From Mumia xiangluensis (GTDB lineage: Bacteria; Actinomycetota; Actinomycetes; Propionibacteriales; Nocardioidaceae), in the NCBI RefSeq assembly GCF_010994095.1, contig NZ_WJYO01000005.1, forward strand, positions 248,001 to 312,000: a DNA stretch of 64,000 nucleotides, in the 5' to 3' direction. Position 1 is the stretch's first letter, and each line of letters begins with the position of its first letter. The position numbers and the translations under genes are program-made. The notes beneath the pieces are model-generated. The model saw nothing but the letters and a program-made list of their open reading frames with translations, had not been told where the DNA came from and did not search any database. Positions 15,827-22,872 of the stretch are shown one piece after another.

Positions 15827-15886
15827 GTGAACGGAGGGTGAACGCACCGTGAGAGCGCTCTCACGGTCGACTCACACGGGTCTCAC
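15827..15886. promoter_or_regulatory. Symmetrical six-half-site operator, 11-bp phased
   Basis: GTGA occurs at 15827, 15838 and 15849 (exactly 11 bp apart), and TCAC at 15861, 15872 and 15883 (again 11 bp apart). All six are symmetrical about position 15856.5. The centre, 15846-15867, is a perfect 22-bp palindrome around GTGAGAGCGCTCTCAC. The two left units read GGTGAAC, like the reverse of the PhoP-box repeat GTTCACC known from Streptomyces. One-turn spacing suggests cooperative binding of an OmpR-family dimer. It lies 79-138 bases upstream of ATG 15965, and a shorter version occurs at 19880-19906. Confidence 0.6.
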
Positions 15887-15964
15887 CGTGCCTCGACATC
15901 GTCTGTGGTGTCAGGAAGCACGCAGACCGGCGTCCTCGCCGGCAGAGATCACGAGGGGAACACC

Positions 15965-16408
15965 ATGAGCAGCACGTTCATCCGGACCGGCGTCGCCGCC
16001 CTGGGCGCGACGATCGCCCTGGGAGGTGTCGCATGGGGTGCGTCGTCGATGTCGACGGCGAGCGCCGAGACGCCGGCCGTCACCAAGAGGATCGACGGCA
16101 ACGACGCCCTGGTGCTGGTCGCCGACGACGACGATGACGACGACGGCGCGCGCAAGGCAGACGACACGAACACGCGCAGCAAGGCGAGCCGGTCGAGGGT
16201 CAGCCGGGGCACCCTGCACAGCCGCAACTCCGGCCGCAGCCGCGACCGTACGAACAGCCGCAAGACGAAGGTGAGCCGCGACCGCGATCGCAGCCGCGCG
16301 GACAAGACCAGGGACTGGACCCGCGACGGTGGAGACCGCACGCGTGACCGCTCCGCCAACCGGACCAACGACCGCAGCAAGAACGACACCCGCTGGCGTC
16401 GGGGCTGA
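15965..16408 (+). CDS. Secreted Asp-run/Arg-rich polyampholyte protein
   Basis: I do not recognise a family. The 147-residue product starts at ATG 15965, with AGGGG upstream and a signal peptide through GVAALGATIALGGVAWGAS and cleavage near STASA. A run of seven aspartates follows (residues about 54-60). The remainder is composed almost wholly of Arg, Ser, Asp, Thr, Asn and Lys, with RSRDR-type repeats, no cysteine and hardly any hydrophobic residue. It should be disordered and strongly basic outside the cell. It follows the six-half-site operator and is closed by a strong hairpin at 16415-16448. Its mirror-image partner is the Asp-rich protein at 19499-19846. Confidence 0.7.
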   Translation: MSSTFIRTGVAALGATIALGGVAWGASSMSTASAETPAVTKRIDGNDALVLVADDDDDDDGARKADDTNTRSKASRSRVSRGTLHSRNSGRSRDRTNSRKTKVSRDRDRSRADKTRDWTRDGGDRTRDRSANRTNDRSKNDTRWRRG

Positions 16409-16414
16409 CGAGCA

Positions 16415-16448
16415 GGGGAGCCGGGCGTCCCGCTACGCCCGGCTCCCC
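16415..16448 (+). terminator. Hairpin terminator after the Arg-rich gene
   Basis: Two perfect 13-base arms (16415-16427 and 16436-16448, GGGGAGCCGGGCG and its complement) enclose an 8-base loop. There is no T-run, as is common in high-GC actinobacteria. Confidence 0.65.
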
Positions 16449-16500
16449 GGAGCACCCCGTCACGCCGACCATCCCGTACGACCGTCGAAGTAGGGACACC

Positions 16501-17388
16501 ATGACCGAAAAGCTCGCCTCCTGGGAGCTCGCCCGCGGCGACTCGCTCACCGACGACCTCATCGCCATGCGCCTCCTCGGAGGAGGCAACGCGTACGAGG
16601 CCTACCTCTGCTTCGACGAGGTCCTGCACGCACCCGTGGTCGTCAAGGTGGTCCGTCCGGACCAGGTCGACGACGAGGTGACGCTGCGTGGGCTGGAGCG
16701 CGAGGCGCAGATGCTCGACGAGCTGGCGCACCCCGCCGTGGTGCGCAAGTTCGGCCTCGACCTCGACGGTCCTCGGCCCCACCTGATCCTCGAGAACATC
16801 GACGGGCCGCGACTCTCGAGCCTGGTGCGCAAGCACGGTGCGCTCCCGGTCCAGCAGCTTCTGCCGCTGGGGCTCGAGCTCGCGTCGGCGCTTCACTACC
16901 TCCGCGTCCGCGACGTCGTCCACCTCGACGTCAAGCCGAGCAACGTCATCATGGGATCGCCCGCGAAGCTCATCGATCTCAGCATCGCCCGCCGCACCGA
17001 GGCTGCCCAGGAGCTCACGTACGTCGTCGGCACAGACGAGTTCATGGCACCGGAGCAGGCCGACCCGCAGGGGTACGGCGCGCCCGGGCCCGCCAGCGAC
17101 GTGTGGGGCCTCGGCGCCACGCTCTACCTCGCGACCAGCGGCTACGCGCCGTACGCGATCGGCGAGGAGGACGATCCGCTCGAGGTCCGCTACCCCCAGC
17201 TGGTGAGCCGGCCGCGGCCCATGCCGTACTTCGTGCCCGTCGAGGTTGCCGAGCTGGTCTACCGCTGCATGGCGCCGGCGCCGCAGGACCGCCCGGAGCC
17301 GGCCGAGGTCGCGGGTCTGATCGAGCCGCTCATGGAGGCCATGCCGAAGGCGCGCCTGGCAGGCTTCAAGATCGCCGCCACCGGCTGA
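16501..17388 (+). CDS. Soluble serine/threonine protein kinase
   Basis: The 295-residue product is a Hanks-type kinase domain and little else. Visible are a glycine loop LLGGGNAYEAYL (about 24-35), the ATP lysine in VVVKVV (about 50), the catalytic loop HLDVKPSNV (about 141-149; HLD replaces HRD), the metal-binding DLS (about 160; replaces DFG) and GTDEFMAPEQ. All catalytic charged residues are present, so it is probably active despite the altered motifs. Unlike PknA/PknB there is no membrane segment or PASTA domain. It is convergent with the response regulator gene, only 12 bases apart, which suggests but does not prove a shared signalling role. Confidence 0.88.
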   Translation: MTEKLASWELARGDSLTDDLIAMRLLGGGNAYEAYLCFDEVLHAPVVVKVVRPDQVDDEVTLRGLEREAQMLDELAHPAVVRKFGLDLDGPRPHLILENIDGPRLSSLVRKHGALPVQQLLPLGLELASALHYLRVRDVVHLDVKPSNVIMGSPAKLIDLSIARRTEAAQELTYVVGTDEFMAPEQADPQGYGAPGPASDVWGLGATLYLATSGYAPYAIGEEDDPLEVRYPQLVSRPRPMPYFVPVEVAELVYRCMAPAPQDRPEPAEVAGLIEPLMEAMPKARLAGFKIAATG

Positions 17389-17400
17389 CCGCGGGCCCGC

Positions 17401-18066
17401 TCAGGCGCCGAACCGGTAGCCGACCCCGCGCACCGTGCGGATCAGGTCGGCCCCGAGCTTCTTGCGCAGGTAGCCGACGTAGACGTCGACGACGTTGGAG
17501 CCGGGGTCGAAGTCGTACCCCCAGACCTGCGACAGCAGCTGCTCGCGTGACAGCGCGTGGTCGGGGTTGCGGAGGAACACCTCCGCGAGGGTGAACTCGC
17601 GAGAGGACAGCTCGACCTCGGTGCCGCGGACGCTCGCGACCCGCCGACGCAGGTCCAGGCGTACGCCGGCAACCTCGAGCACGTCGTCGCTGGGCCCGCC
17701 GGCGTGGACGGCCCGCAGCCGCAGTCGGACACGGGCGACCAGCTCGTCGAAGCGGAACGGCTTGCTCATGTAGTCCGCGGCACCACCCTCCAGCGCGGCG
17801 ACGGTGTCGGTCACCGAGTCGCGTGCCGTCAGCACGATCACCGGGAGCGCCGGTCGCTCGGCCGCGAGCCGGTCCAGGATCGAGAAGCCGTCGAGCAGGG
17901 GGAGTCCGATGTCGAGGACGACGAGGTCGAAGTCGCCGGTCAGCGCGTAGTCCTGGCCGGTGATCCCGTCGGCCACGATCGTCACCGTGTAGCCCTCGGC
18001 GCGCAGGCCCTTGGCGACGAAGGACGCGATCCGGTCCTCGTCCTCGATCACCAGGATGCTGCTCAT
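17401..18066 (-). CDS. OmpR/PhoP-family response regulator
   Basis: The 221-residue product has a receiver domain (about 1-118) with the acidic pair EDED near the start, the phosphorylated Asp52 in LVVLDIGLP and the conserved Lys in MSKPF. A winged-helix DNA-binding domain (about 128-221) ends VRGVGYRFG. It binds DNA as a dimer on direct repeats when phosphorylated by its kinase. The start ATG overlaps the stop of the histidine kinase gene (ATGA at 18063-18066). The GTGA/TCAC arrays at 15827-15886 and 19880-19906 are the natural candidates for its targets. Confidence 0.95.
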   Translation of the reverse strand: MSSILVIEDEDRIASFVAKGLRAEGYTVTIVADGITGQDYALTGDFDLVVLDIGLPLLDGFSILDRLAAERPALPVIVLTARDSVTDTVAALEGGAADYMSKPFRFDELVARVRLRLRAVHAGGPSDDVLEVAGVRLDLRRRVASVRGTEVELSSREFTLAEVFLRNPDHALSREQLLSQVWGYDFDPGSNVVDVYVGYLRKKLGADLIRTVRGVGYRFGA

Positions 18067-19457
18067 CGTTCTCCTTCGGGGCTGACGGTGCTGGTTCGGG
18101 TGGCGGGCAGAGTCAGGCGGAACGTCGCTCCCTCGCCCGGTCGGTGCGGGTCGAGCGACACGGTGCCGCCATGGGCGTCGGCGATGGCCGACACGATCGA
18201 CAGGCCCAGCCCGAACCCCTCACCTCGCGGTGCGCTGCCGCGGCGGAAGCGTTCGAAGAGCACCTCACGGTCGGCCGGGCTCACGCCGGGGCCGCTGTCG
18301 CGCACCCACAGCGTGGTGCCCTCGTCGTCCACGGCGCAGCCGACGGCGATCGTGTCGCCGTCGGCCGTGTGGCGCACGGCGTTCTCGGCGAGCTGGAGGA
18401 CGGCCTGCGTCGTACGGCGGGGGTCGAGGTGCACGACCGCGCCCTCCGGGGGTGCGGCGTCGAGGATCCACGCGCGCGGTCCGAGCGCGCGGCACTTGTC
18501 GAGGATCCCGGTGACGAGGGCGACGGCGTCGACGGGCTCGGGCTGGACGAAGTCGGGCCGCCGCGCCTTCGCCAGGACCAGCAGGTCGTCGACGAGGAGG
18601 CTCATCCGGTCGACCTCGTCCAGCAGCAGTGTGCGCGTGGACGCGACCTCGTCGGGGTCTCCGACGTCCAGCAGCTCGAGGTGGCCGCGCAGGACCGTGA
18701 GCGGGGTCCGCAGCTCGTGGCCGGCGTCGTCGAGCAGCTCGCGCTGCGACGCGAACGCCTGGTCGAGGCGCTCCAGCATCTCGTTGAGGGTCTCGGTCAG
18801 GGCCGTGAGGTCGTCGCTGCCGGTGACGGGGATCCGACGGCTGAGCTCGCCGCCGTCGGTGATCCGGGCGGCCGTCGCCTGGAGGGTCCGGACCGGCCGC
18901 AGGAGCCGTCCCGCGATCAGCCATGCGACGAGGGTGATGACCAGCCACGAGCCGAGTGCGACGGCGACGTAGGTGAGGAGCATGCTGCGGATCTCCGCCC
19001 GCTGGGCGGTGACGTTCCAGGCGACGACGAAGGCCGCGTGCTTCTCCTCCGGCCCCAGCACGGGGCGTACGGCGACGACGTGACGACCTGACGTGGTCTC
19101 GACCACCGTGCTGCCCCCCTCGGCGCGGAGCCGGTCGACGGCGCTGACGAAGTCGGGGGAGGAGAACAGCGACGAGTCACGTCGCCCGAGGAAGCGCCGG
19201 TCACCGTTGCTGGAGAACGCGATGATCCGCTCGTGCGCGTTCGGCTGGTTGCGGGTCATGAACGTCGTCAGGAGCCGGTCCGGGTCGGCGAACGGCGCGT
19301 TCGTCGCGGGGTCGACGCCGCGCTCCTGCAGGGTCTGGAACTCGCGCAGCTCCTGGGTGATCTGCTCCCGGACGTGGTCGTCGACGCGGCGCAGCTCGAC
19401 GAAGTACGCGGCGAGGCCGGCGCACAGCAGGGCCACGCCCGTCAGCAGCGCCACCAC
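18063..19457 (-). CDS. Membrane sensor histidine kinase (HAMP, HisKA, HATPase)
   Basis: From GTG 19457 the product has 464 residues: a first membrane helix (1-20), an extracellular sensor region (about 22-157), a second helix (about 160-182) and a HAMP segment. The HisKA box follows, with His247 in DDAGHELRTPLTVLRG, and then the ATPase domain with LAENAVRHT, DSGPGV and GFGLGLSIV. The frame is open further upstream to CTG 19502, whose reading LSTRTAFSVRQRITG would supply the basic N-terminus typical of such kinases and would overlap the upstream stop as CTGA. The real start may therefore be that CTG. It phosphorylates the regulator encoded immediately downstream. Confidence 0.93.
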   Translation of the reverse strand: MVALLTGVALLCAGLAAYFVELRRVDDHVREQITQELREFQTLQERGVDPATNAPFADPDRLLTTFMTRNQPNAHERIIAFSSNGDRRFLGRRDSSLFSSPDFVSAVDRLRAEGGSTVVETTSGRHVVAVRPVLGPEEKHAAFVVAWNVTAQRAEIRSMLLTYVAVALGSWLVITLVAWLIAGRLLRPVRTLQATAARITDGGELSRRIPVTGSDDLTALTETLNEMLERLDQAFASQRELLDDAGHELRTPLTVLRGHLELLDVGDPDEVASTRTLLLDEVDRMSLLVDDLLVLAKARRPDFVQPEPVDAVALVTGILDKCRALGPRAWILDAAPPEGAVVHLDPRRTTQAVLQLAENAVRHTADGDTIAVGCAVDDEGTTLWVRDSGPGVSPADREVLFERFRRGSAPRGEGFGLGLSIVSAIADAHGGTVSLDPHRPGEGATFRLTLPATRTSTVSPEGER

Positions 19458-19846: not shown

Positions 19847-19879
19847 GTCCCCAGCATTCTCCCGCAGGGCCAAGAGAAC

Positions 19880-19906
19880 ATGAAGTCCGGATGAGAGAAC
19901 TCTCAT
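19880..19906. promoter_or_regulatory. Shorter phased operator upstream of the Asp-rich/kinase/regulator operon
   Basis: ATGAA at 19880 and ATGAG at 19891 are 11 bp apart, and CTCAT follows at 19902. The ATGAG-to-CTCAT spacing is identical to the GTGAG-to-CTCAC spacing at 15849-15864. It lies 34-60 bases upstream of ATG 19846, the right place for autoregulation. Confidence 0.5.
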
Positions 19907-20929: not shown

Positions 20930-22552
20930 TCAGTGGTGGTGGCGAGGCGTCGGTGACGCTTCGTCGGACGCGTCCGGCGTGTCCGACCCTCGTCCTGCCG
21001 GCACCACGACGAACTGCCCCATCGCGCCGGCGTCCTCGTGCCGCAGCAGGTGGCAGTGGAACATGTACGGCGTGTCCGCCGCCTCGTCGGTGCCGGCCGG
21101 GAGGTCGAAGCGCAGCGCGACGCGGACCTGCTTTCCCGGGCGAACGCTGACGGTGTCCTTCCAGCCGCGCTGGTCGGGCGACGGCTCCTCTCCGTCGACG
21201 TCGAGCACCTGGAACTGCACGTCGTGCACGTGGAAGTTGTGCGGGCTGCCGTCTCGGGCCGACAGCTCCCAGATCTCGGTCGTTCCCGCCTCGACCTGGG
21301 CGTCGATGCGGCTCATGTCCATCTCGAGCCCGTTGATCGCCTGCGAGCTCACCGCGAACGCGCGGGTCCGTACGGCGTCGTCGGGATCGACGTCAGGCGC
21401 GGGTGCGAGTCGACGGGGGAGCGGTGCTGAGGGGGTGAGCCGGTCGGCGGCGCGCAGCTCGAGGACGTCGAGGTGGTCGTCGTCGCCGGCGAGCCGGTTC
21501 GAGTCCGCGACCCGCTCAGGCAGCGGCGCGCTGCGCAGGACGGTGCGTTCGCCCGGCTCCATGGTCACGACGATCTCGGCGCGCTCGCCGGGCGTGAGGA
21601 CGATCTCCTCGAGCTGGGACGGCTGCTCGACGAGACCGCCATCGGTGCCGACGAGGGCGAAGGAGCGCCGGTCGGAGAACGTGAACGTGAACGTCCGCGC
21701 GCTGGAAGCGTTGAGCAGGCGGTAGCGGGTGCGTTCGGCCGTCACCTCGTCGTACGGCCCGGGTGTGCCGTTGACGAGGATCGTGTCCCCGAGCAGCCCG
21801 ACGGGGCTGAGGAACGACCCGTTCTCGTCGAGACGTCCGTCGTCCTCGAGCTGGACGTCCTGCACGATCAGCGGGACGTCGTCGACGCCGTAGGTGTGGG
21901 GGAGCGCGGGTCCGTCGTCTGTCGAGGTGGTGCCGGGCGACCCGGCGTCGTCGAGGACGAACATCCCCGCCAGCCCGCGTCGTACGTGTGCAGCGGTCTC
22001 GCCGTGCGGGTGCGGGTGGTACCAGAGGGTGGCCGCGGGCTGGTCGATCGTCCAGTGCGGCTTCCACGTCGTGCCCGGTGCGATGGCCTGGTGGGGGCCA
22101 CCGTCCATCGCCGGCGGCAGGTGCATGCCGTGCCAGTGCACGGTGCTGGTCTCACCGACGTCGTTGGTGACCTCGACGCGGACCTTCTCGCCCCGGGTCG
22201 CCCGGAGCGTGGGACCCAGGAAGTCGCCGTCGAACCCCCACGTCGGGGTCGGGCGCGGCGCCCCGAAGTCGGACTCGCCCTCCTGCATGCGCAGGGCGAA
22301 CACGCGGGTGCCGTCGGCCTCGACCCGCGACTCCGCGAGCGGGGGCACGGCCAGCGGACGGTCGAAGTCCACCGTGCCCACCGTGTCGACCTTGGCGTTC
22401 AGGAGCGAGACCGCGATGAACACGGCGAATCCTCCGACCGCGAGCACCGCGAGGGACACGACGCCGCCGAGGACGATCAGCACGCCACGGCGCCGACGAC
22501 GGCGCGGCGGCGGGGCGTACGGGGCGTACGGGCTGGGTTCGGATGGCGTCAC
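20930..22552 (-). CDS. Multicopper oxidase with N-terminal membrane anchor
   Basis: The 540-residue product is a three-domain multicopper oxidase that would oxidise a substrate such as Cu(I), a metal or a phenol and reduce oxygen to water outside the membrane. A cytoplasmic Pro/Arg-rich start (APPPRRRRRRG) precedes one helix (about 22-46). Copper motifs are HWHGMHLP and WYHPHPHGE in domain 1, and HNFHVHDVQF and MFHCHLLRHEDAGAM in domain 3; all trinuclear and type 1 ligands are present, including the axial Met. The C-terminus ends in HHH. GTG 22552 is chosen because the basic start and anchor follow directly. It is convergent with ribF. Confidence 0.92.
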   Translation of the reverse strand: MTPSEPSPYAPYAPPPRRRRRRGVLIVLGGVVSLAVLAVGGFAVFIAVSLLNAKVDTVGTVDFDRPLAVPPLAESRVEADGTRVFALRMQEGESDFGAPRPTPTWGFDGDFLGPTLRATRGEKVRVEVTNDVGETSTVHWHGMHLPPAMDGGPHQAIAPGTTWKPHWTIDQPAATLWYHPHPHGETAAHVRRGLAGMFVLDDAGSPGTTSTDDGPALPHTYGVDDVPLIVQDVQLEDDGRLDENGSFLSPVGLLGDTILVNGTPGPYDEVTAERTRYRLLNASSARTFTFTFSDRRSFALVGTDGGLVEQPSQLEEIVLTPGERAEIVVTMEPGERTVLRSAPLPERVADSNRLAGDDDHLDVLELRAADRLTPSAPLPRRLAPAPDVDPDDAVRTRAFAVSSQAINGLEMDMSRIDAQVEAGTTEIWELSARDGSPHNFHVHDVQFQVLDVDGEEPSPDQRGWKDTVSVRPGKQVRVALRFDLPAGTDEAADTPYMFHCHLLRHEDAGAMGQFVVVPAGRGSDTPDASDEASPTPRHHH

Positions 22553-22604
22553 GCGAACCAGCCTTGCCGGGGAGCACGACCGATTCCAAGGGTGACGCGG
22601 TGAA

Positions 22605-22633
22605 GTCAGGGATGGTTCCGGGCAGACCCTGAC
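22605..22633. terminator. Weak hairpin between the acidic gene and the oxidase gene
   Basis: GTCAGGG (22605-22611) and CCCTGAC (22627-22633) can pair around a 15-base loop. It lies downstream of the acidic gene and upstream of the oxidase on the same strand, so it could be a terminator or part of an operator. Confidence 0.3.
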
Positions 22634-22650
22634 AGGGATCTGCGGGGGCC

Positions 22651-22872
22651 TCAGTCGCGGTCGAAGTCGTCGTCCAGGGCGACCTCCCACGCCTGGTCGA
22701 TCTGGTCGGCCTCGGCCGCCTCGGCGAACGGATCCACCTCGTCGACGTCGATCCGCGGCGTAGGATCGAGGTCCGGATCAGGCGTGAGGCGCTCGTCGGC
22801 CGGGTCGTCGTCGAGCGGGGCCTCGGTGTCGTACGCCTCGGTCTCGAAGGGATCGGTCTCGAACGTGGACAT
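22651..22872 (-). CDS. Small, very acidic protein of unknown function
   Basis: The 73-residue product starts at ATG 22872, preceded by an excellent GGAGGTGAG. About 40 percent of residues are Asp or Glu, with a few Pro and Thr and only one Arg until the last residues. Motifs repeat loosely as DPFETEAYDTEAP and DPFAEAAEADQ. No signal peptide, cysteine or known domain is visible. It is divergent from rpsO and precedes the oxidase by 98 bases. The strong ribosome binding site and intact frame support a real gene; the role is unknown. Confidence 0.6.
   Translation of the reverse strand: MSTFETDPFETEAYDTEAPLDDDPADERLTPDPDLDPTPRIDVDEVDPFAEAAEADQIDQAWEVALDDDFDRD

Follow-up and report, generated by a model that had tools for sequence, protein, structure and literature searches.

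The array of six GTGA/TCAC half-sites in front of a gene for a small Arg-rich secreted protein in Mumia xiangluensis is, with a probability that we put at about 0.7, a composite site in which two operators adjoin, each for a different OmpR/PhoB-family regulator. The core palindrome and the two half-sites on its right would form the promoter-operator of the local two-component system, and the pair of half-sites on the left would be a PHO box for a PhoP/RegX3-type phosphate regulator. Both regulators would share an RTGA-type half-site and an 11-bp pitch, and the array looks symmetrical most likely because a phosphate-type switch abuts one side of the local operator.

Geometry and conservation of the array

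The window (the whole 64-kb stretch of DNA that was analysed) carries GTGA at 15827, 15838 and 15849 and TCAC at 15861, 15872 and 15883, all exact, in 11-bp steps, with 15856.5 as the centre of symmetry and a perfect 22-bp palindrome over 15846-15867; here the first-pass annotation was exact. The palindrome is the only one of such length in the window, where 0.096 would be expected. The pattern GTGAN7GTGAN7GTGA matches exactly at the array only, once per strand, against a mean of 0.025 in 40 simulated 64-kb sequences, and the expectation for a full six-site array is about 2e-11 per window, so that the phasing is indeed improbable by chance, as had been proposed. When up to two mismatches are allowed, the three-GTGA pattern is not rare (10 in the window, 5.87 expected), and therefore the significance belongs to the exact array. 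Beyond the 22-bp palindrome the spacers are asymmetrical, and the half-sites are of two types, GTGAAC on the left and GTGAG in the core and on the right.

Across the 4.62-Mb genome (98.6% complete), the core sequence TGAGAGNNCTCTCA is matched exactly twice, in both cases flanking the locus, and the reversed-pattern control gave no match. At up to two mismatches there were 42 places compared with 53 for the control; there is no enrichment, and so the regulon is small. Among 341 family genomes, the six-site (three-plus-three) form was found only in the window and in the relative G064, and a three-plus-two form with the strict core in five. A longer near-perfect palindrome with five half-sites lies near position 2910 of L221, from another genus (G440). 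The features of the locus are collected in the table.

Table. Predicted regulatory elements and genes of the locus (positions in the window)
Feature	Position	Strand	Remarks
Left pair GTGAACGGAGG-GTGAACGCACC, probable PHO box	15827..15848	-	minus strand: GTTCACCCTCC and GTTCACCCGCC; directed away from the Arg-rich gene
Core inverted repeat GTGAGAGCGCTCTCAC of the local regulator's predicted operator	15849..15864	+	within the palindrome 15846-15867
Two in-phase TCAC half-sites, +11 and +22 bp	15872..15886 (15872-15875, 15883-15886)	+	TCA at these offsets in aligned relatives
Predicted -10 element CATCGT	15897..15902	+	10 bp past the last TCAC
Arg-rich, Asp-containing small secreted protein, 147 aa	15965..16408	+	first gene past the array
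Ser/Thr protein-kinase-like gene	16501..17388	+	Pkinase PF00069, 118.5 bits (cut-off 31.7)
OmpR/PhoB-family response regulator	17401..18066	-	Response_reg, Trans_reg_C; proposed binder of the core and right half
Sensor histidine kinase	18063..19457	-	HAMP, HisKA, HATPase_c
Small Asp-rich protein, N-terminal hydrophobic segment	19499..19846	-	first gene of the kinase-regulator operon
Predicted -10 AATGCT of the second operator	19853..19858	-	A and T at the conserved offset
Second operator ATGAAGTCCGGATGAGAGAACTCTCAT	19880..19906	-	core ATGAGAGTTCTCTCAT at 19906-19891 and one in-phase TCAT at 19883-19880

The strict core is found in 41 of 80 regulator loci. We aligned the sites of these 80 loci and of 16 family-genome stretches, selected by the strict core and oriented toward the presumed gene, and removed repeats, short-flanked sites and the loci L127 and L130, where the regulator is missing from the stretch. 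Of the 77 sites left, 41 lie upstream of the regulator and 36 on its other side; without those of the window and of its closest relative (L129), 73 remain. Upstream is defined by position only: four of the 41 (L096 and three of L118) stand at a distance above 2.3 kb and possibly belong to other genes, and L107 has its site between the kinase-like gene and the operon. Because the 73 sites are kin by descent and were picked by a strict core, the counts describe core-bearing sites.

In these 73 sites, TCA stands at +11 in 61 and at +22 in 36, the latter mostly on the far side (29 of 34) and seldom before the kinase operon (7 of 39). ANNNT is present at one fixed offset in 59, the next best offset reaching 7. 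The consensus of the conserved sites is RTGAGAG-NN-CTCTCAY-N7-TCAY-N7-TCAY-N10-CANNNT. On the left of the core, however, an in-register TGA was found in only four sites at -11 and two at -22, which is background (other left offsets gave 0 to 6). In relatives, the core and the right side are conserved, and the left pair is missing from nearly all related sites. In G064 the core is identical at 16 of 16 bp and the -10 element at only four of six, the two key columns being A and T in either genome. We regard 15849-15902 (core palindrome, two right-hand TCAC and CATCGT) as a predicted conserved activator-type promoter, with half-sites in the putative -35 position, as in a class II activator.

The shorter form of the array, which had been noticed before the kinase operon, was confirmed as the second operator, upstream of the Asp-rich gene that heads the kinase-regulator operon; it contains a TTCAT half-site. 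The transcript of the Asp-rich gene would apparently be leaderless, with 6 nt from the -10 to the ATG. A different palindrome was seen in two Streptomyces loci (L093 near 2223 and L125 near 2169), where the sequence before the kinase operon is ATGAAGA-N-TCTTCAT-like, not ATGAGAG; this is a possible case of an operator sequence shifting together with its regulator. The strict core is absent from seven Streptomyces loci, and ahead of the kinase the five besides L093 and L125 yielded no palindrome or none that the filter accepted.

The left pair and the phosphate genes

Exact copies of GTGAACN5GTGAAC occur three times in the genome: in the array, some 90 bp ahead of pstS, and in the interval that separates phoU from a phoR-like gene. 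With at most one mismatch, 21 places were found in the genome and none with the control. PstS (TIGR00975) and PhoU (TIGR02135) of this genome score above the curated cut-offs; the phoR-like gene has HisKA and HATPase_c domains and is followed by an OmpR-type regulator gene, which we call PhoP/RegX3-type from the gene order. The exact pattern was also found in 50 of 61 family genomes, with three control hits in all. In a subset of 50 copies inspected in relatives (L170-L219), 35 adjoin a match to PstS (17, three of them weak at 27-29% identity) or PhoU (18), and all 35 show GTTCAC on the strand of the gene; the other 15 have no adjoining PstS or PhoU match.

The PHO box of Streptomyces consists of 11-nt units with GTTCACC (PMC4415409, PMC6988585), and the minus strand of the left pair, GTTCACCCTCC-GTTCACCCGCC, likewise has two 11-nt direct repeat units with GTTCACC. 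Streptomyces PhoP is also described as overlapping sites of AfsR and GlnR (PMC6988585). Unlike the Streptomyces box as there described, the left pair abuts the operator of another two-component system and its GTTCAC strand points away from the downstream gene; on the far side no ANNNT was found at the usual offset where a -10 would stand. The left pair is probably a PHO box overlaid on the operator of the local regulator.

Could the six half-sites instead be one symmetrical operator of the local regulator alone, with the left pair as an extra arm and three dimers or a larger assembly spread over all six? We consider this doubtful, and we leave it some credit because the probable PHO box points away, because GTTCAC is still compatible with the half-site model of the local regulator (6.4 bits, in the lowest 22% of its own units), because the 11-bp register is exact across the junction, and because AgrR operators are reported to carry the direct repeat on one or both sides, with one distal repeat aiding binding (PMC7380067). 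It also agrees with the TTCAT of the second site and with the four of 341 family genomes or drafts that, besides the window, reach at least five half-sites, three of them without GTGAAC pairs (G004, G074, G440). The left pair is moreover kept in G064 at 20 of 22 bp, compared with 16 of 24 for the left flank and 55 of 63 where the preceding gene ends, although this makes the left block only slightly better conserved than that gene end. Against a single operator stands the background level of left half-sites in the 73 other sites, where the right ones are conserved. The left pair is, in addition, GTTCAC twice, a form that occurs in one of 107 right-side units of the local operator and that is the exact PHO box of this genome; and it is absent from the orthologous Arg-rich promoters of Mumia quercus and G057, as from nearly all related sites. 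The first-pass annotation had suggested a single symmetrical operator, with three dimers or two trimers of the same protein on the six half-sites, an idea that is weakened by this one-sided conservation and by the PHO-box match.

The composite reading has a difficulty of its own, in that selection or a shared binder would be needed to keep the register exact across the junction. In a stronger version of it, the local and the PhoP/RegX3-type regulators, sharing half-site code and pitch, would co-assemble on the six sites in a locked register, and contacts between these unlike regulators would let the promoter integrate phosphate starvation with its own signal; this version seems to us improbable. 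The symmetry of the array is most probably the meeting of two operators.

The local regulator and its predicted targets

The response regulator had been proposed as the binder of the array, and it is still the best candidate. In 100 family genomes, motif and regulator occur together in 39 and are both lacking in 46, with two genomes having the motif only and 13 the regulator only (Fisher p 4e-14, kinship not corrected); presence of the regulator was defined as E <= 5e-80, and four genomes with weaker matches (1e-51 to 1e-62) were scored as lacking it. The 13 genomes with the regulator and without the strict motif are evidence against a simple picture. One of the two motif-only genomes, G065, is represented by a draft of about 220 contigs with 82% completeness. 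In the other, G049, the regulator, the histidine kinase and the Arg-rich gene were not found genome-wide at the thresholds used; at its locus (L127, 941-2240) no single open frame spans the kinase-like gene and the adjoining site is degenerate, while two sites, one ahead of the Asp-rich gene and one ahead of the calcium-repeat gene described below, are intact despite the absence of the regulator. These intact sites also speak against the simple picture, and we read them as a sign of recent loss.

The top NCBIfam model of the regulator is TIGR01387, for heavy-metal response regulators, with 196.3 bits, below the curated cut-off of 279.2; the protein is therefore taken to work like CopR/CusR/AgrR-type regulators without being filed as one. 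Its best match in the species collection is in Mumia quercus (86% identity). At 20930-22690, about 1 kb past the second operator, lies a gene for a CueO-like multicopper oxidase that scores under the curated cut-off. Copper regulation, which this neighbour and the likeness to copper regulators might suggest, was considered and rejected: no core at up to two mismatches was found by 20930-22690, and metal genes are not among the presumed targets.

In architecture the array comes closest to the AgrR box of Cupriavidus metallidurans, bound by a regulator of the CopR/CzcR type, where a 16-bp inverted repeat (ATKACANNNNTGTMAT) and in-phase direct repeats both contribute to activation and the regulator is subject to autoregulation (PMC7380067). 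The predicted operator described here likewise has a 16-bp inverted repeat (6-4-6), an in-phase direct repeat and class II spacing, the spacing to the -10 being read from the sequence. Compared with the AgrR box as described there, it has other bases, as many as two repeats on the right, spaced by 11 bp, and an invariable N10 before the -10; its presumed targets are genes for small low-complexity secreted proteins and kinase-like genes, and no metal-resistance targets were found at the 36 far-side (S-type) sites. CopR of Corynebacterium glutamicum is, like the local protein, an actinobacterial OmpR-type regulator with an 11-bp pitch; it controls its own and a neighbouring operon through a TGAAG direct repeat (TGAAGATTTnnTGAAGATTT), and differs, as described, in having no inverted repeat, copper-gene targets and another half-site extension (PMC3140484). 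MacR of Streptomyces, considered for a similar palindrome, was set aside, a review table giving it as NarL-type. A search for such an actinobacterial operator in one literature library listed nothing on it. Because the conserved motif tracks the close relatives of the regulator and the design matches the AgrR box, this regulator very likely activates the array promoter and is its main binder.

The array precedes the Arg-rich secreted gene, as had been annotated. The protein gave no match in Pfam or NCBIfam, and homologues of its gene stand after operators in relatives. The genome of the window has one paralogue (E <= 1e-5; 52% identity; C6:78570-78959, in L005/L225), preceded by the full operator-promoter layout with a one-mismatch core at C6:79057-79070. 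The full layout was found likewise at a second homologue in G064, whose match contains one TGA, and at both tandem copies in G057. The kinase-like gene may be co-transcribed with the Arg-rich gene, and it stays a neighbour in many Nocardioidaceae loci. The gap between the two genes holds a hairpin at 16405-16475 (-39.3 kcal/mol, z -3.9, none of 200 shuffles equally stable, no T run), a possible terminator or attenuator. On one strand the locus reads phospholipase-D-like gene, site, Arg-rich gene and Ser/Thr-kinase-like gene, and on the opposite strand regulator, histidine kinase, Asp-rich gene and site; this order is wholly or partly retained in many Nocardioidaceae loci.

Five one-mismatch cores (L003-L007) occur in the genome: that of L005 has the full layout just described, that of L004 the half-sites without the -10, and the other three have neither in full. 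In L004 (C3:389382-390070) the one-mismatch core and both right half-sites stand before the gene of a secreted protein with RTX-type calcium-binding repeats. The site is kept in G064 and G049 and absent in G021 and G038, and its -10 is off the usual offset; this gene is a possible further target. A PHO-like left arm at the same gene was not counted, because the pair shows two mismatches and its GTGAAC runs into what seems to be the stop codon of the preceding gene. The 36 far-side sites precede 32 genes for small, apparently secreted proteins and four for APH-like phosphotransferases (one of them Pfam-checked). The 32 proteins have, as judged by eye, an N-terminal hydrophobic segment and a tail that is Asp-rich, Arg/Ser-rich or Pro/Ser/Thr-rich; across families they differ clearly in their low-complexity repeats, which are NTAPT-, SPLSV-, DDSDGR- or TRDPQ-like (e.g. 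L049, L069, L074, L115, L124). Such a regulon of low-complexity secreted proteins and kinase-like enzymes is unusual.

Proposed mechanism, remaining alternatives and meaning

From these data we infer how binding, activation and any effect of phosphate might proceed. The activated local regulator would bind the 16-bp inverted repeat, spread over the two TCAC boxes that replace the -35, and recruit RNA polymerase to the -10 element 10 bp on. The promoter would then express the Arg-rich secreted protein, perhaps together with the downstream kinase gene, and the same regulator would activate its own operon from the second site and the Arg-rich paralogue elsewhere in the genome. Since the PHO box lies upstream and points away, bound PhoP would more likely modulate this promoter, by competition at the left arm of the palindrome or by help, than drive one of its own.

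Two further explanations of the palindrome seem to us highly implausible. The core TGAGAGCGCTCTCA has what we take to be a resemblance to the boxes of LacI-family sugar regulators, for example of the CebR type; most matches in one family of the phylum sample (f3) are CG-centred, and TGGGAGCGCTCCCA is present elsewhere in the genome. However the second site is AA-centred, the centres in relatives are many, and the sites of relatives are always beside two-component genes, with in-phase half-sites and the fixed -10. As for a terminator or a chance palindrome after the phospholipase-D-like gene, it begins 42 bp past the end of that gene (15803), but the same element stands before the kinase operon and beside other genes in relatives, and chance is excluded by the exact-core genome search and the palindrome statistics of the window.

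The analysis gives a precise operator-promoter code for a two-component system of several actinobacterial families and one thermoleophilial draft genome, and links it to a peculiar regulon made up of low-complexity secreted proteins and protein-kinase-like enzymes. The composite site would offer a test case of how two paralogous regulators meet in a single register, and would illustrate that perfect-looking symmetry can arise from two adjoining operators.
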